In this document: positions 1 to 19,426 of the stretch, piece after piece
How positions within the stretch are numbered: the stretch's first letter is position 1
How the letters are laid out: every line of letters begins with the position of its first letter
NCBI RefSeq assembly: GCF_018524365.1
Contig: NZ_JAEKFT010000004.1
Coordinates: 1-64,000 of the forward strand
Reading direction: 5' to 3'
DNA: 64,000 nt
Source: Denitromonas iodatirespirans
GTDB taxonomy: Bacteria; Pseudomonadota; Gammaproteobacteria; Burkholderiales; Rhodocyclaceae
Notes under the pieces: generated by a model
Databases searched by the model: none
The model's input: only the letters and a program-made list of their open reading frames with translations
What the model was told of the DNA's origin: nothing
Made by a program: the position numbers and the translations under genes

Positions 1-3000
1 CATTGGTGACCGTCACCGCGATGGCCTGGGTGTCGGTGGTGGTGCCGTCGCTCACCTGCACGGTGACGTCGTAGATGTTGTCACCGCCGACATCGGTGGG
101 GGCTTCGAAGTTGGGCGCGGCGTTGAAGCTGAGCACGCCGGTGCTGCTGTCGATGCTGAACCGGGCCGCATCGGCGCCGCCTGCGATGCTGTAGCTCAGC
201 GTGTCGCCCACATCGGCGTCGGTGGCGGTGACGGTGGTCACGGCCGTCTGGTTCTCGGCCGCGTTGAGGTTGGCGCTGGCGCCGCCGCCGTCGCTGGTGA
301 TGGTCGGGGCGTCGTTGACCGCAGTGATGTTGATCGTCGCGGTATCCGAATCGGTCAGCGCGCCCCCCGAACCGCTGTTGCCCAGATCGTTGGCCTGCAG
401 TGTCAGGGTGTCGCTGGACGGCGGCGTATCGCTGTTGATGACATAGCTCAGCGTACCGCCCGAGGTGCCGGCAAGCAGCGTGTTGATCTGCGTGACGGTA
501 CCGGTGAGCGTGATGCTGTTGCTGCCCGAACCGGACACGCTCACCCCGGTGCTGCCGGCCGTCGCGCTCAACGTGCCCGAAACAACGGACACCGTTGCCT
601 GCACACCGACGCCGCCGTCGTCGACATCGGCAATGCTCAGACCGGTGCCGTGCAGCGTGAGCGTGGTCTGCTCGGTGGCGTTGTAGCTTGTGGGGACGAT
701 GGTGGCGGTCGGCGCATCATTGAGCGCATTGACGGTGATCGCGACGTTGTCGGTATCCCGCTGGCTCAGATCCGAGGCCAGTACCTCGATTTCACTGGTA
801 CCCAATGCACGGTTGTAGACGCGCGCTTCGTCGATCCGCCCAGTGAAGTCGTAGCCGGCCCCCCCTGCGCCATGCGTGCCGATGAAGCTATCGGGCCCGC
901 CACCCACGCCGCCCCAGTCGATGGCGGTGATGCTGTTGCTTGTCGCCACTGCGATGCCGTCGAGATACAGCACCTGCGTGTGGCTCCCCGAATCGATCGA
1001 GAACGCGACGTGATGCCATCCGCTGCCGGCGAGCGTCGTCGCATACACGGTGAAGTTGTAAGTGAAACCGTCGTTGTAGAAACCCTTGAGCTTGCCCCCC
1101 TGGTCGAGACGCAAGCCGACAATGTCGCCCAGCGAGATCACCTCCGCACCGTTCGTGTCCGCGCTCGTCAGGTCGACCCACGCCGACACGGTAATGCTGG
1201 CCGGCATGCCGTACAGACCGCTGACCTGCACGTAGCCGGTACCGGACAGACCCAGGACATCGCCCCGCGTGGCGTCGTCGACCGCGCTGACATTGACCGG
1301 CGTGCCCACATTGCCCGCGGCGGGACTGGTATCGTCGCCCAGAGCGCCGGTGTTGTCGAAAGCATAGCGCCCGATCAGGGCGGTATCGATATCAAGACTG
1401 AGCAGCGAGCTGCCGAGCGTGGTGAGCGTGAGCGTCGCGCCACCGTTGTAGTCGGCGGTTGGCGTATAGCTCAGCCCGTTCAAGGCGTTGTTGATATCCG
1501 TGACCGTTCCACGGAACGTCATGGTCGCGTCCGCCGTACCGTCGCCACTGATGAAACTCAGGCCGGTGGTGCCGGCGAGCGTCAACGCACCGTGGGTGAC
1601 CGACAGCGAGACCTCCACCGGATTGCCGCCCGCGTCGGGGTCGCTCACCGAAATGGCGTTGCCATTGCCCACGGAAAACACAAGCGCCGTGTCTTCGTTG
1701 GTGCTCTGCGCACCGGGCACGGTATTCACAGGCGCGGCAAGCCCGTACTCATATGCGCCGATATCAGCGCTGGCGTCGCGGGTGACACCGCGTTGATCGG
1801 TCGCGGGCGCGATTGCGTCGGCGGCGTTGTAGGCGATGCTCGACGAGGCAATCGCATGCACATACTGACCGCTACCGCTATCCACGGACACGGCCGCCAA
1901 ACCCGGATCGCTTGTCTGATCTGTACCATCGAGCGTGAAACCCGAGTAGCTCTCAACGATGTTGTGCCCGCCACTGGTGACGGCACCGGTGATATCACCG
2001 CCATTGAACTGCGAAGTATTGTCCGCCACGATCGAGTTGCTCAGCGTGGCCGAGCCACCGGACAGGTAAATCCCGCCGCCGCTGCCAGTGCTGGTCGTCG
2101 CATTGCCTGCGATGGTCACGAAGTCGAGCGTCGCGCTGCCCCCCGCAACCGTGAGACCGGCGCCATTGTACGGTGTCGTGTTGCCACTGACCGTCACGTT
2201 GATCATCGACAAGCTGCCGCTGGCCAGGTAAATCCCAACGTCCGAGTTGCCGTAGACCGAGACACGCTCCAGGGTTGCCGAACCGCTGTTGTAGAGGCCG
2301 CCACCAGCGTTGTTGACCACCGTGTTGTTGCTGAGCACCACGTCGGTCGCCGAGAACGTACCGGCGTTATTGACCGCTCCACCAAACTGGTTGGTGGTGT
2401 TGGCATCGGAGACTGTCAGGTCGTTCAAAGTCAGTGCCGCGCCGCTGTGGACGTCGAAAACGCGATCGCCCAGCCCGCTCGCGCTGATGGTCGTCTGCCC
2501 CGCACCGGCCCCCTGGATGGCGATGTCGCTGGTGATATCGAGATCGCCGGTAGCGGCAGCATCCTCGTAGAGCCCGGTGATCGACAGCGTATACGTCCCC
2601 GACGAAAGGGAAATGGTGTCGGCCCCTGCAGTGTTGTTGGCGGCGATGATCGCTTCGCGCAGCGAGATCTTGCCGTCCGCGCCCTTGTTGGCGACGAGGT
2701 TGGCGATGGACGAGGTATCGCCATCGGCAACGTCGTTCGTCGTATCGGCAGTGAGACTCCCGAGGGTCCCCTGCCACGACAGCGCCCCCCAATCGCTCAT
2801 GGCCGACACGCTACCGATCTGCCCGACTGCATATTCCAGCGTCCAATCGCCACCCAGCACGGCTGCGCCGGTCAGATCGTCACTGGCCGCCACATCAGCC
2901 CCGGTGAGCACCGCCAGATCGCGCACCAGCGCCTTGCCGGCGTCGTTGCCAGCCACATCGCAGCCGTAGAACAGCAGGTCGGCATCGGCGGTCAGCGCCT

Positions 3001-3406
3001 TCGACCACTGGGCGATCTCGTCGCTGCGCGCCAGCACACAGGCCTCGTCGAGCAGGAAGCTGCCGAACTGGATGGCGCCGGCCTCGCCGTGCGTCAGCAC
3101 GTGAATCGCGCTGACCGGGCCCGAAGCCTGCAGCGTGCGCGATATCTGCGTGATGCCGTCCTCGGCCGGATCGAGCCGCACGATCTCGAGCGGCCGTCCG
3201 GCCTCGATCTGTCGATTCAGGTCTTCGAGCAATACATCGACATCGTTGAGCGAGGCATCGACAAAAACGATTTCGTGCGCGGACTGATCCTGCTGCGTAT
3301 CGAGGCCATGGCTGAGCGTAGCGTCGCCAACCGGCACCAGATCCGCCGAATACAGAATCCGGGCCTCGAGCTGTTCGACCGTCGCAGTCGGCGTCGCCCT
3401 GCTCAT
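1..3406 (-). CDS. Giant LEPR-XLL / DUF4347 surface adhesin, 3' end beyond the window
   Basis: Open from an ATG at 3406 to the window edge (1135 codons seen, no stop). The N-terminus has no Sec signal peptide but carries LEARILYSAD (residues 13-22), a match to the LEPR-XLL motif of giant proteobacterial adhesins. A DUF4347 domain follows (about 46-205) with THGEAG and FYGCDVA motifs. Next come an ISLREAI motif (about 247-253) opening a right-handed beta-helix region, a LamG/jelly-roll domain (about 677-820), and Ig/cadherin-like repeats up to the edge. It starts 4 nt after the stop of an HlyD-type gene, so it is the last visible gene of the export operon and its probable cargo. The family is large, repetitive and cell-surface or secreted; the exact ligand is unknown. 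No RTX nonapeptides are visible, but the C-terminus is missing. Confidence 0.9.
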   Translation of the reverse strand, partial: MSRATPTATVEQLEARILYSADLVPVGDATLSHGLDTQQDQSAHEIVFVDASLNDVDVLLEDLNRQIEAGRPLEIVRLDPAEDGITQISRTLQASGPVSAIHVLTHGEAGAIQFGSFLLDEACVLARSDEIAQWSKALTADADLLFYGCDVAGNDAGKALVRDLAVLTGADVAASDDLTGAAVLGGDWTLEYAVGQIGSVSAMSDWGALSWQGTLGSLTADTTNDVADGDTSSIANLVANKGADGKISLREAIIAANNTAGADTISLSSGTYTLSITGLYEDAAATGDLDITSDIAIQGAGAGQTTISASGLGDRVFDVHSGAALTLNDLTVSDANTTNQFGGAVNNAGTFSATDVVLSNNTVVNNAGGGLYNSGSATLERVSVYGNSDVGIYLASGSLSMINVTVSGNTTPYNGAGLTVAGGSATLDFVTIAGNATTSTGSGGGIYLSGGSATLSNSIVADNTSQFNGGDITGAVTSGGHNIVESYSGFTLDGTDQTSDPGLAAVSVDSGSGQYVHAIASSSIAYNAADAIAPATDQRGVTRDASADIGAYEYGLAAPVNTVPGAQSTNEDTALVFSVGNGNAISVSDPDAGGNPVEVSLSVTHGALTLAGTTGLSFISGDGTADATMTFRGTVTDINNALNGLSYTPTADYNGGATLTLTTLGSSLLSLDIDTALIGRYAFDNTGALGDDTSPAAGNVGTPVNVSAVDDATRGDVLGLSGTGYVQVSGLYGMPASITVSAWVDLTSADTNGAEVISLGDIVGLRLDQGGKLKGFYNDGFTYNFTVYATTLAGSGWHHVAFSIDSGSHTQVLYLDGIAVATSNSITAIDWGGVGGGPDSFIGTHGAGGAGYDFTGRIDEARVYNRALGTSEIEVLASDLSQRDTDNVAITVNALNDAPTATIVPTSYNATEQTTLTLHGTGLSIADVDDGGVGVQATVSVVSGTLSATAGSTGVSVSGSGSNSITLTGTVTQINTLLAGTSGGTLSYVINSDTPPSSDTLTLQANDLGNSGSGGALTDSDTATINITAVNDAPTITSDGGGASANLNAAENQTAVTTVTATDADVGDTLSYSIAGGADAARFSIDSSTGVLSFNAAPNFEAPTDVGGDNIYDVTVQVSDGTTTDTQAIAVTVTN

Positions 3407-3410
3407 GAGG

Positions 3411-4346
3411 CTATCTCGCGGCCGGTAGGCGCGACAATCGTACGTCCAGCAAGAGTGGGCGTGCCGGTCGCGCTGCGGGCGGCTGCGCCTCGCCCGACGC
3501 GCTCGGCATCGGCGCGCCGACGGAAGCGTCAGCCGCAGGGCGCAGCACCGCGAAATCGACATGGCACCGCACGCCGGCGGGCACCGCACCATCGGCATTG
3601 TCGAGCGCCAGACGCACGCGGAAGGTGTTGCTGGCCGCGTCGACCATCGGGTCGACCAGGCTCACCTTGGCCTGCACGGCCGACACGCCTGGCACATCGG
3701 GCTGTACGGAGGCTAGGTCACCCGCGGCAATGGTGCCGAACTGGGCCGCCGGCACGACCACTTCGACCTGCAGTGCATCGAGCGCGGCCAGGTGCAGCAA
3801 GGGGCGATCCTCGACCCGCTCGCCCGGTTGCGTCATCCGGTCGACGACCACACCGTCGAACGGCGCCCTCAGAAAACGCTGGCTCAACTGTGCCTGCGCC
3901 AAGCGCGCCTCGCTGCCCGACACCCGCAGTTGTTCGCGACTCTGGGCCACGCGCTGGCGCGCCACCTCCCGCTCCGCCGCCGCCTGGTCGAGCGCCTGGC
4001 GGGAAATGAAGGCACGCCCATGCAGGTCCACGGCGCGCGCGTAGCGTTGATCGGCGAGCGTCATGTTGGCCCGGGCGGCCCGTAGTTCGGCCGCCACCCG
4101 CGCACGCAAGGTGGCGACGTCGACGTTGGCCGCCTCGACAGCCGATTGCAGCACCACCAGAACCTGGCCCTGTTTGACGCGGTCGCCCCGATCCACCGCC
4201 ACCGATTCGACGACGCCGACCACCGGCGTGCCGATGTCGGCCTCTCGTGCGGGCGTGATCAGACAGCCGAGCGGTATCGCCGATACGCCGAATGCCGCGC
4301 TGGTCAAGATCATGCCGAACAAGCAGTGAATGCGTCGTTGTGTCAT
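3411..4346 (-). CDS. HlyD-family periplasmic adaptor (membrane fusion protein)
   Basis: 311 aa. An N-terminal hydrophobic segment (about residues 8-30) acts as signal or anchor. It is followed by a split biotinyl-lipoyl barrel-sandwich domain (GVVESVAVDRGDRVKQGQVL and, after the hairpin, RAPFDGVVVDRMTQPGERV). A roughly 90-residue alpha-helical hairpin rich in Ala/Arg/Gln and a beta-barrel lie around and after it. The start at 4346 shares one base with the TGA of the SecA-like gene (TGATG), so translation is coupled. HlyD adaptors normally bridge an inner-membrane energiser to an outer-membrane channel. Here the partners appear to be the SecA-like ATPase and the M50-HlyD protein, because no ABC or RND pump is encoded nearby. 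Confidence 0.85.
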   Translation of the reverse strand: MTQRRIHCLFGMILTSAAFGVSAIPLGCLITPAREADIGTPVVGVVESVAVDRGDRVKQGQVLVVLQSAVEAANVDVATLRARVAAELRAARANMTLADQRYARAVDLHGRAFISRQALDQAAAEREVARQRVAQSREQLRVSGSEARLAQAQLSQRFLRAPFDGVVVDRMTQPGERVEDRPLLHLAALDALQVEVVVPAAQFGTIAAGDLASVQPDVPGVSAVQAKVSLVDPMVDAASNTFRVRLALDNADGAVPAGVRCHVDFAVLRPAADASVGAPMPSASGEAQPPAARPARPLLLDVRLSRLPAAR

Positions 4347-6241
4347 CAATCCACTTCTTCGTTGCGTACGGCCATACAAGCGTCCCAGTGGCGCGCGCTG
4401 GCCAGCAGCCGCGCACGCTGGCGCCGGGCCCGGCCCGCGCGCCGGTGCTGGTGGTGCCGCAGGCTCAGCGGAACGAGCTTGTCGGCCAAATCCCGGCAGC
4501 TGCACTTGAGCAGCCAACGGATCATCTTGGTTAACGGCATTGGGGCCGTTTCCATTAGGGGTAGCGTCAGCCAGTGCTCGACACTGCCCGGATCGCCCTG
4601 GCGGGCACATCGCCCGGCCAATTGGCGATCCTGCCGTCTGCAATCGTTCAACTGCAGGCTCAGGACATGCAGCCCACCGGCCGCCACCGCACGGGGACTG
4701 AGTCGAATGTCGGTACCTCGGCCGGCCATATTGGTCGCCACCGTCACCACGCCGGCCGCGCCGGCGGCAGCCACCACGCGGGCTTCGGTGGCGCTCTGGT
4801 CCGCGTTGAGCACCTGATGGACAATGCCCGCGCCTTCGAGCGCCTGCGCGACCCGGGTCGACTGCGTGACGGTGTCGGTGCCGATCAACACGGGCCGTCC
4901 GGCGGCGATCAGCACACGGACCCGAGCGACGAGCGCCTCGACGCAGGCGGCTTCATCGGCGAACACGCGATGCGGCAATTCGCGCCGAAGGCATTCGCGC
5001 CGCAGCGGCATCCGCAACACCGACAGCCCGTACACGCGGGACAGTTCTCGGCGAACTTCACGCAGACTGCCGCTCATCCCGCCGATGCGCGCATACCGCG
5101 GAAAAAAGCGTTGATAGCTCGTCTGCGCCACCGTCGCCAAGGCCGGCGGCGGTTCCAGCCCCTCCTTCAACGCGAGAAGACCGTGCAAACCCTGCCCCCA
5201 GATCCGCCCCTCGGCAATCCGTCCGGTGACCGCATCGACCACGCACACCTGAGCGTCGCGTACCACGTAGTCCCTGCCGGCGAGGTAGCAGTGTCGCGCC
5301 TTCAAGGCCATCACGAGCCACTCGTCGCGGTGCCGCGCGTTGATCCATGCGCCGCCCAGGTCGGGCAGCGACGGCGACTGCAATCGGACCGTCCGGTGCC
5401 GTTCGTCGAGGTGGTAGTCTCGCCCCGCCACCAGCGCGCTGGCCAATCGCCATGCCTGCCAGCAACGCACGCGTTCGGCCGGATCTGGCCGCAGCGCCGA
5501 CACCACCAGGGGCACGGAAGCCTCGTCGACGAGAATGCTGTCCGCTTCGTCGATGAATACGGTATCGAGGCGCGGCAACACCGGTGCGGCGTCCGTCCCT
5601 TCGACGAGCACGCGCGCGCCCACCATCAGCGCCCCGGTCGCGCCGTGCGCGCAGGCCTCGTCGCGCAGGGCGTCGAATACCACGGCCTTCGCGGTGGCAT
5701 ACACCACCTCGGCGCGATAGGCGACGCGCCGCCCCGCCAGCGCATCCGTTTCCGCCACGGTCGCGACTCGCAAGCCCAGCGCGTCGTAGAACGCGGCGAG
5801 CCAGGCCGCATCCCGCTCGACGAGGTAGGGGTTGGCGGTCAGCACATGCACCCGATGCCCGGCGAGCGCCGACACCGCCGCCGCCAGCGCCGTCGCGAGC
5901 GTCTTGCCCTCGCCGGTCGCCATTTCCACCAGACGCCCGTCCATCATCGCCAAGGCGGCCAGCCACTGCACCTCGTACGGGGTGATTCCCAAGTGTTCGC
6001 GACACGCGCGATCGACCCGCGCACAGGCCGCCAGCCACGGCGTGCTGCCGGCCCCGGCATGCATCAGGGATGCCCGCCAGGACATGCTCGGCATACCGCC
6101 CGCGTCGGGCATGTCGCGCAGGCGGGCATACTGGCGGCGATACCGCGCCAGGGCACCGCCGGAAAGCGGCGGCCATCCGAGCGGCCCAGCGCCGGTCGGA
6201 TCGTGCGGACGATCGAGCGCGCGCGCCGGGCTCATGTCCAT
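4346..6241 (-). CDS. Short SecA-like ATPase of the adhesin export operon
   Basis: 631 aa, against roughly 850-900 for housekeeping SecA. Motifs are clear: Walker A MATGEGKT (107-114), Walker B VFIDEADSILVDE (228-240), GLHGLLALKEGL (351-362), GGMSGS (387-392), NMAGRGTDI (504-512) and GRCARQGD (543-550, the arginine-finger motif). After the second ATPase lobe only about 80 residues remain, basic and His/Arg-rich. The helical scaffold/wing domains and the zinc-binding SecB site of normal SecA are therefore absent or strongly reduced. The start (MDMSPARA) shares one base with the stop of the M50 gene. It is probably a dedicated motor for the giant protein; involvement of SecYEG is unknown. It is not the genomic secA. 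Confidence 0.88.
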   Translation of the reverse strand: MDMSPARALDRPHDPTGAGPLGWPPLSGGALARYRRQYARLRDMPDAGGMPSMSWRASLMHAGAGSTPWLAACARVDRACREHLGITPYEVQWLAALAMMDGRLVEMATGEGKTLATALAAAVSALAGHRVHVLTANPYLVERDAAWLAAFYDALGLRVATVAETDALAGRRVAYRAEVVYATAKAVVFDALRDEACAHGATGALMVGARVLVEGTDAAPVLPRLDTVFIDEADSILVDEASVPLVVSALRPDPAERVRCWQAWRLASALVAGRDYHLDERHRTVRLQSPSLPDLGGAWINARHRDEWLVMALKARHCYLAGRDYVVRDAQVCVVDAVTGRIAEGRIWGQGLHGLLALKEGLEPPPALATVAQTSYQRFFPRYARIGGMSGSLREVRRELSRVYGLSVLRMPLRRECLRRELPHRVFADEAACVEALVARVRVLIAAGRPVLIGTDTVTQSTRVAQALEGAGIVHQVLNADQSATEARVVAAAGAAGVVTVATNMAGRGTDIRLSPRAVAAGGLHVLSLQLNDCRRQDRQLAGRCARQGDPGSVEHWLTLPLMETAPMPLTKMIRWLLKCSCRDLADKLVPLSLRHHQHRRAGRARRQRARLLASARHWDACMAVRNEEVD

Positions 6242-8388
6242 CACACCCCCTCCGGATCGAATCGTCCCAACAGCAATTGCCACCCGCGACGCCACAGCAG
6301 CGTCGCCAGCGAACTTCGTCCGTGCTCGAACCGCGCCTGGACACGACCGCCGCTGAAGGCCTGGGGCACGTCCGGCACGATCAGATCGACCCATACCACG
6401 GGCGTCGTCGTGCGCAGCCCTTCCTCGTCCTTCGGGTCGACCGCGAAAGGCCCCCCTGCGGGCATCCCCAACGCGGCCGCGGGCAACTGCCGGCGGGCTT
6501 CGGGCAGTTGCCCGATCAGCTGCGCCGGATGGAAAACGCCGGGCGACTCCGACAAGCGCACGCTCACGCTGCTCAGATCGACCAGGCCGGCCGCATCATC
6601 GTCGGGTACCGCGAGGCGCACCCGCGTGGCACTGCCGTCGCGGATGATGCCGATCTCCTTGCCACGAGGCACAAAGCGTCCGGGCAGATCGCCTTGCGCC
6701 GGCAGCACGAGGCGTCCGGCGATCGCGGCACGTACCGACAGGCCGTCGATCTGCTCCTCGGTGCGTCTCAGCGCACGCTGGACGCTTTCGACGCGCTGCG
6801 CGAACTGGCCAGCGGTCACCGGATCGTCTCTGAGGGCATTGAACAAGGCCGTCTGAAGACCATCGCGCTCACGCACGAGTTGCTCGCGCTCGGCCACCAG
6901 CTCGTCGTCTGCCAGCTGCAAGATGACGTCACCGGGTTCGACATGCTCGCCATGCTGCCGCACCACCGCCGCGACAAAACCGGCCGTTTCGTTCCGGATC
7001 CGTGCCGTGTCGGGCCACCAGGCCACGCCGTGCGCCAGCGTGACATCGGGAACCGGAACGGCGAAAAGGCCGACCGGGACGAGCCCGGCGAGCAGGATGG
7101 CGGCCATGCGGGAACGCAGTCGATTGGATTCGGCCACCCGCCCATCGAGCAGCGCACGAACGGCAGACACGATGGGCGAGAGGAACAACGACCAGACGAA
7201 CCAGAAGCCAGCCAGATAGCCGAGCACCGCGGCCAGATGGCCGAGCCAGAGCGTAATTGCCAGACTGAGCCCGAGCCGGTACAGCCATGACAAGGGCTGA
7301 TAGAGCCACAACCAGGGGGTCTCTCCCCGCAAGGGAATCAGCGGATCTCCCGATTCGTACCCCTGGATCCATCGCTGCAGGTGATCGAGCCACCAGCGAC
7401 GCGAGCGATCGGCCAGATTGGGCAGATCGAGCAGATCCGTGAGCACGAAGTAGCCATCGAAACGCAGCAAGGGGTTGCCGTTGGCAAGCAGGGTCGACAC
7501 CGAGCAGATCACCACCACGGTCAGGGCCACATCGCGCACCAAGCCCGGCTGGACGAGCAGCCAGATGCCCAGGGCGATGGAGGCCATCATCAGTTCGGCC
7601 ATGATGCCCGCGGCGGAAACCACGGCCCGTTGACGGGCCGACCTGAACGCGCTCGCCGCCGAGGCATCGACATAGGGCATGGGCATGAACACGAGCAAGG
7701 CCACACCCCACTCGCTCACTTCGCCATCCCAGCGCCGCACCGCCAGACCGTGCGCCAGTTCATGCACCAGCTTCACGACCGGATAGACCCCCCATAGCAA
7801 CCACAAGCGGCCGTTGCCGTGCAGCAATTGCGAGGCATGCGCGCTGAGGGCATCGGACTGGGTCAGGGCAACCAAGACCGCCAGCACCACGATCACCCAC
7901 CACACCCCCATGGCAATGGGCGTGATCAGCAGCTTCCCCAACGGCGCCAGGGCCTCGAGCACACGCGTGGGGTTGCCCAGCCTGACGCGAAAGGCCAGCG
8001 GGTTGAGCTTCTGGGTCTTGAGACCCTGTCGAGACACACGACGCGAAAACAGGCTGCCGATATCGGCATGGTGGTCGAAATACAACAACCCCGCCGCCTG
8101 CAGACGGACCATGAGCCTCAGCAACGCGCCTTGCGACGGCACGCCATCCCCGAGTTCGGCGCACACCACGTCCCATATGGCCTGTACCGTATGCGCCCCG
8201 GTACACCGCCCCACGAAGGCATAGGCGGCCGCATCGAGCCGAAACACGCGATCGGCCTTGGCCTCATCCGTCAGCACATACCAGACCTGTCCGCGCACCG
8301 TCTGACGACGCACACGCACGCTCGCACGCAAGCACGGGGTGCGCTGGGCCACCCGGAACCACTGATCACTGAAGAGTGACTCGCTCAC
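6241..8388 (-). CDS. PqqD-like / M50 site-2 protease-like / HlyD fusion membrane protein
   Basis: 715 aa from a GTG start 4 nt after the upstream stop; longer upstream starts would run deep into the preceding gene. Residues 1-110 resemble the PqqD-like N-terminus of putative peptide zinc metalloproteases. Several membrane helices follow, with the zinc motif HELAHG (209-214) and a second metal motif NPLLRFDGY (305-313), both typical of M50 site-2 proteases. From about 464 a biotinyl-lipoyl (HlyD) domain begins (GDVILQL), then a coiled coil and second half-barrel. Zn-binding residues are intact, so it could be proteolytically active. I infer an inner-membrane platform that may process or gate the exported protein; similar fusions occur beside peptide and bacteriocin export genes. 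Confidence 0.83.
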   Translation of the reverse strand: MSESLFSDQWFRVAQRTPCLRASVRVRRQTVRGQVWYVLTDEAKADRVFRLDAAAYAFVGRCTGAHTVQAIWDVVCAELGDGVPSQGALLRLMVRLQAAGLLYFDHHADIGSLFSRRVSRQGLKTQKLNPLAFRVRLGNPTRVLEALAPLGKLLITPIAMGVWWVIVVLAVLVALTQSDALSAHASQLLHGNGRLWLLWGVYPVVKLVHELAHGLAVRRWDGEVSEWGVALLVFMPMPYVDASAASAFRSARQRAVVSAAGIMAELMMASIALGIWLLVQPGLVRDVALTVVVICSVSTLLANGNPLLRFDGYFVLTDLLDLPNLADRSRRWWLDHLQRWIQGYESGDPLIPLRGETPWLWLYQPLSWLYRLGLSLAITLWLGHLAAVLGYLAGFWFVWSLFLSPIVSAVRALLDGRVAESNRLRSRMAAILLAGLVPVGLFAVPVPDVTLAHGVAWWPDTARIRNETAGFVAAVVRQHGEHVEPGDVILQLADDELVAEREQLVRERDGLQTALFNALRDDPVTAGQFAQRVESVQRALRRTEEQIDGLSVRAAIAGRLVLPAQGDLPGRFVPRGKEIGIIRDGSATRVRLAVPDDDAAGLVDLSSVSVRLSESPGVFHPAQLIGQLPEARRQLPAAALGMPAGGPFAVDPKDEEGLRTTTPVVWVDLIVPDVPQAFSGGRVQARFEHGRSSLATLLWRRGWQLLLGRFDPEGV

Positions 8389-8392
8389 CGGC

Positions 8393-9826
8393 CTATCCGC
8401 CCCAGCGCCACCAGGCCATGCGCGCGTTGTCCGCAATCCAGCGCCAGAGGACGCCGAACAGCGGCGCACTGCCGATGTCGATTTTGCCGACGCCTCGCAA
8501 GCCGGGGCGCAGCGAGGTTTCATCGCCGAGCAAGCGTGCCTCGACCCGATAGACGTTCTCGCCGTCCTCCACATGAGCCACGGGCGTCACCCGCGTCACC
8601 TCGAAAGGCAAGGTACGGCTGGCCATCGCGCCCAGCAGCAGCACGCCGTGCTGCCCCGCCTGGATGCGGCCCACATCGCGTTCGTGGACACTCAGCGCCA
8701 CGCGGTATCCCTGGGCGGGCGCAAGCGTCAGCAGTACGTCGCCTCGGGCCACGGGCGCACCTTGGAGCCGACCCATGTCGCCTGCGATCACCACCCCGTC
8801 GATGCCCGCGGCGATCTTCGTGCGCGCCAGGCTGCGCCGCGCCAGATCGAGACGCGCACGCGCCTCTTCCGCACGCGAGAGGCTCACCATCATGTCGCTG
8901 CGCTGCGCGCGCGCCAAGGCCGCCATGTAGGCGCTTTCGTGCTGCGACAGTTCGGATTCCCAGCGACGCGCTTCGAGTTCGAGATCCTGCGCGGCCAGTT
9001 CGATGAGCACCTGCCCGGTCTTGACCGCATCGCCCGGGCGCACCATCACGGTGTCGATGAACCCATCCACGGGCGCAACCACTGCGCGCTCGACCGCGCC
9101 TTCGAGCGACGCGCGCGCACTCAGCGCCTGCCCGACCGGCACGAACAGCCCCGCCATCGACACCAGCGTCGCGGCGACCAGCGCACGGCGGTACCAGCGC
9201 CCTTCCTCGCTCCTCAGGGTGCGTATCGTTTCGCCGAACCACTCGCGCACGCGCACCGACATCGGTCGGGTGTCCCGGTACATCAGGTAGAGCACCGGCC
9301 CGGCCAGGTCGACGATGTGGCCCAGTGGTTCTGGCGCCATGGGCGAAATCGAGGACGCACCGCGCCACTCGAAGCAAATGGCACCCACCCATGCGCCCAG
9401 GACCTTGAGCGGTACGGTCTGAACCTGCCCGCCGAGGCGCGAGCGCAACCGCTGGTTCGCCATCACGATGGCCGGACGCTCCTGATCGTTTTCGGGCACC
9501 TGCAGGCTGCGCCGCTGATCCAACGCCTCCTCCATCGCGTCGCCAATATCTCGATAGAGCTCGCCGCGAAAATGATTGTCGACATCGTGCGACATGGCCT
9601 TCACACGGAGCGTGCCGGACTCCACGATCCCGAAGCTCACCCGCGCGCACCCCAGGCCGGAGGCGATCTCGGAAAGAAAGGCCACCGCAGCGCCGTCGAA
9701 GCGACGCTGACTCAACGCTGCCGCGAGCGAACGCAGCGCAATTTCAGCGAACTGCGGCACCTCGTCCATCGTCGGCGCGGCCGTTTCCTCCTGCGCGGTC
9801 GAGAAGGGGTGAATTTTTGCTGGCAT
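8393..9826 (-). CDS. GAF-domain / HlyD-like membrane protein
   Basis: 477 aa, first gene of the five-gene operon. Residues about 25-190 look like a GAF sensory fold, followed by one transmembrane segment (about 212-232). A barrel-sandwich domain follows (VVAPVDGFIDTVMVRPGDAV, then a short helical hairpin and DGVVIAGDMGRL) with a C-terminal beta-barrel. It is therefore an HlyD-type adaptor with a cytoplasmic GAF module, which could couple export to a small ligand or protein signal; no ligand can be assigned. The ATG at 9826 has only a weak Shine-Dalgarno sequence. Its TAG stop lies 4 nt before the GTG of the M50 fusion gene. Confidence 0.8.
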   Translation of the reverse strand: MPAKIHPFSTAQEETAAPTMDEVPQFAEIALRSLAAALSQRRFDGAAVAFLSEIASGLGCARVSFGIVESGTLRVKAMSHDVDNHFRGELYRDIGDAMEEALDQRRSLQVPENDQERPAIVMANQRLRSRLGGQVQTVPLKVLGAWVGAICFEWRGASSISPMAPEPLGHIVDLAGPVLYLMYRDTRPMSVRVREWFGETIRTLRSEEGRWYRRALVAATLVSMAGLFVPVGQALSARASLEGAVERAVVAPVDGFIDTVMVRPGDAVKTGQVLIELAAQDLELEARRWESELSQHESAYMAALARAQRSDMMVSLSRAEEARARLDLARRSLARTKIAAGIDGVVIAGDMGRLQGAPVARGDVLLTLAPAQGYRVALSVHERDVGRIQAGQHGVLLLGAMASRTLPFEVTRVTPVAHVEDGENVYRVEARLLGDETSLRPGLRGVGKIDIGSAPLFGVLWRWIADNARMAWWRWGG

Positions 9827-16931: not shown

Positions 16932-17749
16932 CAGCGCACCTGCCGGCGCAGCCAGGCGCTCAGGGCATCGGCCGCCATCACCAGCAGCAAAAAGGTGATC
17001 AGGATGCTGCAGGCTTCGCCGCCGTTGAGCATCTTCATCGACTGGTCCATCAGCTGCCCGAGCCCGCCGGCGCCGACGAAGCCCATCACCACCGAGGCAC
17101 GCACCGCGCATTCCCAACGATAGACGGTGTAGGACATCAGCTCGTCCGAGGCCACTGGCAGCAGGCCGTAGCCCAGCGCGCCGAGCCGGCCGCTGCCGGC
17201 GGCGAGCAAGGCGCGGGCGGGGGTCAGATCGGTGGATTCGAGAATTTCGGCATACACCTTGGCGAGCATGCCGCCGTAGGTGATGGCCAGCGCGGCCACG
17301 CCGGCGGCTGGGCCAAGCCCGAAAATGCGCACGAACACCAGCGCCCACACCAGCTCCGGCACGCCGCGCAGCACCAGCGTGAGGCCGCGGGCGCACAGGC
17401 GGAGAGCTTCGGAGAGGGGCCGCAATCGGCCGTCGAGCCGACCGATCGACAGGCTGCGCGTGGCCAGCAGCGCCAGCGGCACGGCGATCAGCAGCGCCAG
17501 AGCGATGCCGACGGTGGCGATGGCCAGGGTGTCGAGCGTGGCGGCGGCCAGCAGGCCGAGGAAATCGGCGTCGGTGGCCGGCGGCAGAAAGGTGGCGAGA
17601 AAGCCGCCGAGCGTGGCGAGGTTGCCCGGCGCGAACAGCACGGCCGGATTGAATTCGGCGATCTGCAGCAAGGGCCACAGCACACACAGGCCGAGCACCA
17701 GCGCCGTGGCCCGACCGCGCGCGGCCGGATCGCGCACCACGGCATTCAT
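16931..17749 (-). CDS. phnE1: PhnE-type ABC transporter permease (first subunit)
   Basis: 272 aa with about six hydrophobic helices and the conserved loop [21 protein letters not shown], then [17 protein letters not shown], typical of phosphonate/oxyanion permeases. Its ATG overlaps the ATPase gene's stop by 4 nt (ATGA), and its own stop overlaps the second permease start. Two homologous permeases of similar size in tandem point to a heterodimeric inner-membrane channel. Confidence 0.83.
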
Positions 17750-18546
17750 GCGCAGCGCGTCAGCCGTGTGCGGGGGGCGGGCTCGGCGGCCTCGGCCGCG
17801 TCGCCGACGGGGGCGCCGGCATACAAGGCGTCGACCTCCGCCTGGCCGACCTGTGCCGCGGGCCGATCGAAGGCCACGCGGCCGTCGCGCAGGCCGATCA
17901 CTCGGGCAAACTCCGACAGCGCCAGATCGACCGCATGCAGGCTGGCGATGAGCGTCACGCCGCGGCGCCGGGCGTCATCGTTGAGCGCCACCGCCACCGA
18001 GCGGGCCAGCGCCGGGTCGAGGGCGGACACCGGCTCGTCGGCCAGCACGAGCTTCGGTTGCTGATACAGCAAGCGGGCCAGGGCGATGCGCTGCAACTGG
18101 CCGCCGGAGAGCTGGTCGCAGCGGTCGAACAGGCGCTCGGTCAGACCCAGCGGTTCGAGCGCGGCGCGGGCACCGGCGATATCCAGCGGGTAGACCAACG
18201 AGGCCATGGCGCGCCACAGCGGCCATTGCCCCAGCCGCCCGGCCAGCACGGCGGTGACGACACGCTGGCGCGGCGGGATTGGCGGGGCCTGGTGCATCTT
18301 GCCGATGCGCGCGCGCAGGCTTTGCAGCGCACGGCCGCTCAAGGCCCAGGGATCGACGCCGTCGACCCGCACGTGCCCCGCCGTCGGCCGCAGGCTGGCG
18401 CCGATCACGCGCAGCAAGGTGGTCTTGCCGGCGCCGGAGGGGCCGATCAGCGCCACCCGCTCGCCGGGCGCGATCGACAGGTCCACCCCGTCGAGCGCGC
18501 GCCGGCCGTCGGCATAGGCCACGCCAAGTGCGGCGAGCGAGATCAT
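17746..18546 (-). CDS. phnC: PhnC-type ABC transporter ATPase
   Basis: 266 aa. Walker A GPSGAGKT (35-42), signature [15 protein letters not shown], Walker [13 protein letters not shown] and H-loop [10 protein letters not shown] are all intact. The C-terminal tail is short and Ala/Glu/Pro-rich. It lies 4 nt after the binding-protein gene and overlaps the first permease gene. It energises import by this system. Confidence 0.87.
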
Positions 18547-18550
18547 CCGC

Positions 18551-19426
18551 TTACTTGAGCAGGCCGGCGGCGCGAGCAGCCGATTCGATACCGTCGTAGT
18601 TGGCCGGCTCGGTCGGGATGAAGCGTGCCGCGCGTTGCAGCTCGAGAATCGCCTTGTGCTCGGGCTTGGCCGGGTCGAGCGCCAGGAAGGCCGCCCGGAT
18701 CTTGGCCTGCAGGCCGACGTCGAGATCGCCGCGCACCGTCCAGTTGTAGTCGAAGTACGGCGGCGTGGTGGCGAACACGCGCACCTTGGCGGTATCGACC
18801 TTGCCGCTGGCCACCAGCTTGTCCCACACCGAGGCATTGAGCGCGCCGGCGTCGACCTTGCCGGCGGCGACGAAGGCGGCGGTGGCGTCATGCGCGCCGG
18901 AGAAGGCGATGTTGGCGAAGTCGGTATCGGGCGCGATGCCTTCCTTGCCGAGGAAGAAGCGCGGCATCAGGTGGCCGGAGGTGGACGACGGCGAACCGAA
19001 GGCGAAGCGCTTGCCTTTGAGGTCGGCAAAGCTTTTGATGTCGTCGCGGGCCGTGATGAACTTGGAGGTGAAGCGGGCATCCTCCTCGCGCTGCACCAGC
19101 GGCACGGCCGTGCCGTTGGTGCGCAACTTGGCTTGCACATAGGTGAAGCCGCCGAGCCAGGCCAGGTCGACCTTGCCGGCGCCAAGGGCTTCGACCACAG
19201 CGGCATAGTCTGTGACCGGCACGAACTTGACCGGCATGCCGAGCTGCTGCTCGAGGTATTTGCCGAGCGGCTCGAACTTGCGCTGCAACTCGGTGGGCGA
19301 TTCGTCGGGGATGGCGGACACGCGCAGGGTGTCGGCGGCGAAGGCGGAGCTTGCCGGCAGCGCAAAGGCGACGCCGGCAGCGGTGAGCGCGCGCAGCAGG
19401 GCGCGACGCATCGACAACTGCATCAT
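18551..19426 (-). CDS. PhnD-like periplasmic binding protein, putative selenate-type group
   Basis: 291 aa with a signal peptide (cleavage near [10 protein letters not shown]). ATG 19426 follows AAGGA with good spacing. The type II periplasmic binding fold of the PhnD/SsuA2 superfamily is clear: [49 protein letters not shown] and [20 protein letters not shown]. From memory, this pattern agrees better with proteins annotated as putative selenate ABC transporter binding proteins than with E. coli PhnD. No C-P lyase genes accompany it. The true ligand (phosphonate, phosphite, selenate or another oxyanion) is unproven. Confidence 0.8.

Follow-up and report, generated by a model that had tools for sequence, protein, structure and literature searches.

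A five-gene operon of Denitromonas iodatirespirans seems to belong to a widespread, tag-reading export system for giant surface proteins

Five adjacent minus-strand genes at the start of a 64,000-nucleotide stretch of Denitromonas iodatirespirans DNA (contig NZ_JAEKFT010000004.1, positions 1 to 64,000; hereafter the window) seem, judged from sequence, to be a member of a widespread export system that reads a tag on giant sticky surface proteins. They encode a GAF-HlyD protein, a PqqD-M50-HlyD protein, a truncated SecA-like ATPase, an HlyD-type adaptor and a giant adhesin with a LEPR-XLL N-terminus (Table 1). We hold it to be fairly probable that this is a dedicated export system free of ATP-binding cassette (ABC) transporters, in which the PqqD-M50-HlyD protein would read the N-terminal tag of giant proteins and HlyD adaptors and TolC would form the exit. 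The four-gene core was published in 2015 (PMC4452313), and the machine itself is therefore not new. For the rule that ties it to a cargo, no published account was found in the open-access literature searched.

LEPR-XLL proteins and the module go together across genomes, as proved to be the case when a check proposed in an earlier note on this DNA was carried out. In 41 genomes, i.e., the window's own and 40 relatives, a second, short SecA was found in 10, and LEPR-XLL (scored at E 0.01) in exactly the same 10 and in none of the 31 others, with weaker matches up to E 0.1 in five further genomes. Among 398 genomes spread over the Pseudomonadota, LEPR-XLL was detected in 54, a clear second SecA in at least 35 and M50-HlyD in at least 93, the last two totals being lower bounds because these surveys scored two places per genome. 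LEPR-XLL occurred in 32 of the 35 second-SecA genomes vs. 22 of the 363 others, and the 32 genomes with both represent 15 families. M50-HlyD was present in 52 of the 54 LEPR-XLL genomes; LEPR-XLL in turn was present in 52 of the 93 M50-HlyD genomes vs. 2 of 305 others. A second phylum (148 genomes) agrees more weakly, with LEPR-XLL in eight genomes, M50-HlyD in 11 and both in five (5 of 11 vs. 3 of 137; 4 of 10 vs. 3 of 137 without the centre genome).

M50-HlyD scores in the Pseudomonadota split into two groups, type A (at least 370 bits) and type B (about 190-310 bits), with class borders set in this analysis. Within the named loci (the best 80 of 511 relatives), counting those with enough flank, the truncated SecA adjoins the type A M50 gene in 64 of 69 loci, GAF-HlyD is present in every one of 67, and the third HlyD was seen in 59 of 65. 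TolC lies beside at least five of the 80 type A loci, a lower bound from a single-sequence probe, as an earlier probe missed the one in Methylosinus. The type A operon of that Methylosinus plasmid (NZ_AP022333.1, L200) includes its own TolC gene and a LamG cargo gene of 26.5 kb with the tag LEPRVLLNAD; the database record labels its SecA-like gene (L200:16222-18138) 'prepilin peptidase'. Type B loci comprise GAF-HlyD, M50-HlyD, HlyD and TolC and lack SecA. Next to 18 of the 20 type B loci read lies a giant cargo frame whose tag has the form LE-x-R-x-x-x-D; the cargo of G181 is on another contig, none was seen at G063, and the adjacency in G142 follows from frame length. Whole-genome searches found a type B M50 in ten of 17 second-SecA genomes. 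The window's own genome holds both systems, and its SecA-less locus (L134, G000:C127:5001-25000) has an 872-aa cargo frame tagged LEPRLVFDGA.

The residue four places after LE(P)R (R+4) in the cargo matches the type of the system. When all 82 LEPR places of the 398-genome survey were classed by this residue, S occurred in 29 genomes, all 29 with a type A M50, and D in 28 genomes, all 28 with a type B M50, the type B class being taken from the two-places-per-genome survey except in the 17 second-SecA genomes searched whole. The 11 genomes with type A only hold S at 12 and A at one of 13 places, and the 17 with type B only hold D at 22 and A at one of 23 (these include G208, so classed since its type A M50 was not seen, despite its second SecA). 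Genomes with both types (24) hold S at 27, D at 14, A at one and N at one of 44 places, with one unclear; the two in which no M50 was seen (G250, G317) hold Y and one unclear place. The S tag was found in 25 of the 35 second-SecA genomes vs. 4 of 363 others, and a type A M50 is present in each of these four (G050, G109, G224, G369). Among 34 cargo from type A loci or from elsewhere in the same genomes, 32 carry S and two carry A, and all 18 type B neighbour cargo carry D. A first count on chosen cargo (S in 50 of 55 for type A; D in 34 of 36) was biased and has been replaced by that of the 82 places: it drew on 20 of the 53 LEPR places of second-SecA genomes (the window's own left out), mostly the best scoring, and the remaining 33 hold S 15, D 15 and A 2, with one unclear.

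Several observations weigh against the proposed system. A giant frame in G309 (G309:C10:57867), some 12 kb away from a type A M50 gene, bears a type B-like tag, RVLLDGT; this genome also holds a type B M50. LEPR-XLL was found without M50 in G250 and G317 (there in a 64-aa frame) and, in the second phylum, in three of eight genomes (G519, G527, G572). Conversely, 3 of the 35 second-SecA genomes and 41 of the 93 M50-HlyD genomes gave no LEPR match at E 0.01; the type B loci of G039, G197 and G228 carry tags that the LEPR model missed. Five second-SecA genomes (G160, G164, G180, G208, G309) have D tags only, and part of the association between LEPR-XLL and SecA thus stems from type B. A whole-genome SecA search of 11 genomes found canonical SecA only in eight, four with a type A M50 (G224, G369, G435, G437) and four with type B (G039, G122, G197, G260). 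No TolC was seen next to the window operon. Finally, the genomes are related, and p-values for co-occurrence are descriptive only. In the three other genomes searched (G040, G434, G436), the type A locus lacks SecA, but SecA lies elsewhere in the genome. Five type A genomes had shown no second SecA in the survey; three of them, G042, G050 and G109, hold divergent SecA frames, and G224 and G369 hold none. Several LEPR proteins of G029 and G040 are encoded far from the SecA genes, so cargo can be supplied in trans.

The operon structure given in the earlier note was confirmed from the junctions of the five co-directional genes (1..9826). The stop codon of GAF-HlyD is followed by a 4-nt gap and the GTG of the M50 gene at 8388; the TGA of the M50 gene and the ATG of the SecA gene overlap by 1 nt at 6241, as do the TGA of the SecA gene and the ATG of the HlyD gene at 4346; and a 4-nt gap separates the TAG of the latter from the adhesin ATG at 3406. 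The domain content claimed there stood for SecA, the HlyD domains of three proteins (Pfam scan), DUF4347, the PqqD-like domain and the LEPR-XLL N-terminus, but M50 (Pfam 2.8e-5, 24.0 bits) falls under the Pfam cut-off of 27.2, and GAF is called by Pfam only in four homologues (L034, L093, L108, L135) and not in the window protein.

From these features we infer how the tag may be recognized, in which direction and through which conduit the chain would move, and how it might be tethered and released. The PqqD-like domain would most likely be the cytosolic reader of the cargo's front end, a basic stretch followed by LE(P)R-hydrophobic-L-(Y/F/L)-S-A-D. The truncated SecA, with its two motor domains and clamp domain and without two-helix finger or wing, would feed the chain N-terminus first and deliver it to an inner-membrane assembly of M50-HlyD and GAF-HlyD, from which the three HlyD parts might build a tube across the periplasm to a TolC-type pore. 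For adhesins such as that of the window, a conserved C-terminal hydrophobic segment and charged tail could stop transfer, and the protein would then stay anchored in the inner membrane next to a diguanylate cyclase, where the M50 site could cut it for release.

The SecA-like protein matches SecA_DEAD (2.6e-61) and the SecA P-loop (1.9e-38), has conserved ATPase motifs and aligns to Bacillus subtilis SecA up to residue 613-627, ending in the first scaffold helix. With the residue limits that we assume for these parts in B. subtilis SecA, it has lost the wing, most of the scaffold and the two-helix finger, and it thus cannot work just like the SecA of the Sec pathway. No relatives were found in viral contigs. 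Could it be a SecA2 that uses the housekeeping SecYEG, with the HlyD proteins acting after the cargo has reached the periplasm? Its strong homology to SecA and SecA2 would fit, as would the placement of the secondary SecA_DEAD protein beside actinobacterial SecA2 in PMC4452313. We consider this unlikely, given the missing C-terminal parts (scaffold, wing and two-helix finger) that a full accessory SecA2 has, scores far below the cut-offs of two SecA2 models (346.6 of 725 and 307.7 of 930 bits), the related gene sets without a SecA-like protein and the finding that 38 of 40 cargo have no strongly hydrophobic stretch at the N-terminus. The last result also bears out the earlier claim that the cargo has no Sec signal peptide, as judged by hydropathy rather than a signal-peptide predictor, on a cargo list made with an ad hoc pattern that misses at least L028, L030, L034 and L205. 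In contrast, the view that the SecA-like protein is the needed energizer was not upheld, since four type A and four type B genomes hold only canonical SecA; given the sister branch without SecA, this motor may not be an essential part.

The earlier note had also seen no ABC gene in the operon, which holds for its surroundings: no ABC motif occurs within 6 kb of the operon, and the nearest ABC ATPase (17748-18966) lies 7.9 kb upstream on the same strand. Across 114 loci, a strict motif gave two ABC genes no more than 6 kb from genes of the system, each on the opposite strand and none co-oriented, and a looser motif gave six in four loci, one of them co-oriented (L056, 1.7 kb upstream) and resembling branched-chain amino acid importers. 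The system is like type I secretion in its HlyD adaptors, TolC-type pore and giant repeat adhesins as cargo. It differs in that the window operon has M50 and a truncated SecA instead of an ABC protein and in that the cargo tag is N-terminal. The window adhesin probably ends in a conserved tail, and no repeats-in-toxin (RTX) match was found in the two adhesin ends scanned (window N-terminal part, C3 C-terminal part). TolC is present in type B loci and in the Methylosinus operon. The adhesin might nevertheless be type I cargo of an unlinked ABC exporter, with its position beside the operon incidental. The HlyD and TolC parts resemble those of type I systems, an ABC ATPase does lie 7.9 kb away, and unlinked ABC exporter genes were not searched for; however, the co-occurrence across 15 families and the match of tag and system would be hard to explain in this way, which makes such a route very improbable.

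The PqqD-M50-HlyD protein has the motifs of an M50 site-2 protease, with H209, E210, H213, N303, P306 and D311 invariant in 53 sequences. The fold matches listed are taken up by the HlyD part and do not include the S2P fold, which is not evidence against M50. The PqqD-like domain matches the profile of a solved PqqD (Table 1), and Pfam's own PqqD model gave no match in this protein. An apparent M50-SecA gene fusion in G012 (L032), a single 1419-aa frame, was rejected, as the M50 part lies in another frame. Among named families the daptide intramembrane metalloprotease NF041824 matches at 4.8e-37 (128 of 300 bits, below the equivalog cut-off) and, like other PqqD/RRE leader readers, shares the N-terminal PqqD-like domain fused to M50; the window protein is additionally fused to an HlyD part, and its cargo is a giant protein rather than a peptide. 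It might be a maturation protease that reads and cuts a leader, as in daptide biosynthesis, with another exporter elsewhere. Peptide-maturation proteases are indeed its best named relatives (NF041824 up to 3e-50 in homologues), and PqqD-like domain and invariant catalytic residues agree with such a role. Three HlyD adaptors and often TolC are, however, co-encoded, and ABC ATPases are rare nearby, so that we see little likelihood in this alternative.

Because the window starts at base 1 of its contig (C137), only the first 1135 aa of the adhesin are present. A profile built from the C-terminal ends of adhesins matched the end of contig C3 of the same genome, where a 380-aa frame, open at the contig end and containing cadherin-like and Ig-like repeats, has a transmembrane-like tail and shares 53% identity across 373 residues with the final part of the G008 adhesin. 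The window adhesin probably continues there, across a presumed C137-C3 join. Following the sequence beyond position 1, as the earlier note had suggested, thus yielded a probable adhesin end and no ABC motif in the adjoining 18.3 kb of C3, but no TolC beside the operon. A PAS-GGDEF gene for a diguanylate cyclase (L154:15668-17203) overlaps the probable adhesin end by 4 nt; of the next five C3 frames scanned, two have Pfam matches (VWA just under cut-off; 4Fe-4S) and three have none. A hydrophobic segment containing PAWR-x-x-DPLPIL, together with a charged tail, is common to ten adhesins. A cyclase homologue directly follows the tail-bearing adhesin in eight of eight cases (own, G008, G020, G005, G001, G006, G039, G325), with the GGDEF part seen in six and just the sensor part matched in G001 and G006; this count leaves out L032, L045, L061, L079 and L135 (cut there). 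As a general mark of the system the tail was rejected, with strong matches in 4 of 398 genomes plus ten weak ones (scoring no more than 13 places in each genome) and presence in just 7 of 15 complete cargo.

More tentatively, these findings may point to a separate ABC-free Gram-negative pathway, defined by the N-terminal LE(P)R tag and with two tag-matched sub-types, in which adhesins like that of the window operon would span the envelope and stay tethered beside the diguanylate cyclase. One sub-type would combine the SAD tag with the truncated SecA motor, the other would have the D(G/A)A tag and no dedicated ATPase, and a single cell would often contain both. LapA-type adhesins are giant, are retained at the envelope and are under cyclic di-GMP (c-di-GMP) control with LapD/LapG. 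The window adhesin is similar in size, proposed envelope retention and the c-di-GMP gene next door; it differs in that retention would be through a C-terminal transmembrane segment and in having a cyclase rather than LapD/LapG (a LapG-type protease was not searched for). If the tether is real, the adhesin would span the whole envelope and surface contact could signal to c-di-GMP.

The published locus (Kamneva, Poudel and Ward 2015, PMC4452313) comprises GAF, M50, SecA_DEAD and HlyD genes and was described as a module resembling type I secretion that occurs across phyla. The window has the same four genes in the same order as Methylobacterium extorquens AM1 META1p2402-2399 (GAF by homology only), including a SecA_DEAD protein without most of the wing-scaffold region. 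The truncation and the absence of an ABC gene were noted there, M50 was proposed as the membrane part and SecA as the ATPase, and the wider role was stated to be completely unknown. The earlier note's remark that no characterized system of this kind was known therefore stands only in that the module was in print without cargo or experiment. In the sections covered, neither a cargo nor a sister system without SecA is described, nor are the tag rule, the tail and the cyclase, and the words adhesin, LEPR, DUF4347, cadherin and PqqD are absent from the main text. To a module that lacked a known cargo and purpose, the tag rule offers both; it suggests that many giant adhesins lacking an assigned export route share one path, and it raises the question of how proteins of thousands of residues exit where no dedicated ATPase is encoded.

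Table 1 Features of the operon in the window
Feature	Position	Strand	Evidence
GAF-like, transmembrane and HlyD adaptor protein, 477 aa	8393..9826	-	HlyD_3 4.4e-16; GAF by homology only
PqqD-like, M50 and HlyD protein, 715 aa	6241..8388	-	of all partners, the one most constantly found with LEPR cargo
PqqD-like (RRE-like) N-terminal domain, putative reader of the tag	8083..8343	-	profile match to 3g2b PqqD 7.7e-6, residues 16-102
HELAH zinc-protease motif	7750..7764	-	H209, E210, H213 invariant, 53 sequences
Truncated SecA-like ATPase, 631 aa	4346..6241	-	both motor domains, preprotein-binding domain; stops within first scaffold helix
HlyD-type adaptor, hydrophobic N-terminus, probably periplasmic	3411..4346	-	HlyD_D23 4.4e-20; RND_mfp 1.7e-38
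Giant adhesin, N-terminal 1135 aa, cut by contig edge	2..3406	-	DUF4347, Laminin_G_3, cadherin
LEARILYSAD, LEPR-XLL tag (NF012209), adhesin residues 13-22	3341..3370	-	LEPR-8K 19.6 bits (cut-off 17); 24.1 bits in genome scan
DUF4347 domain of adhesin	2762..3271	-	4.8e-48

Type B genes were also seen in Escherichia coli. Plasmid NZ_CP081687.1 (44829-64580; L198, L201) carries a complete type B set, consisting of a giant Ig-like protein with LESRQLFDGA, TolC, HlyD, GAF-type HlyD and M50-HlyD, and the type B M50 gene was found in 24 of 5426 E. coli genomes, 22 of these with most of it. In G342, the type B TolC gene has an HlyD-type frame (L206:2499-3659) upstream of it, in addition to the usual set.

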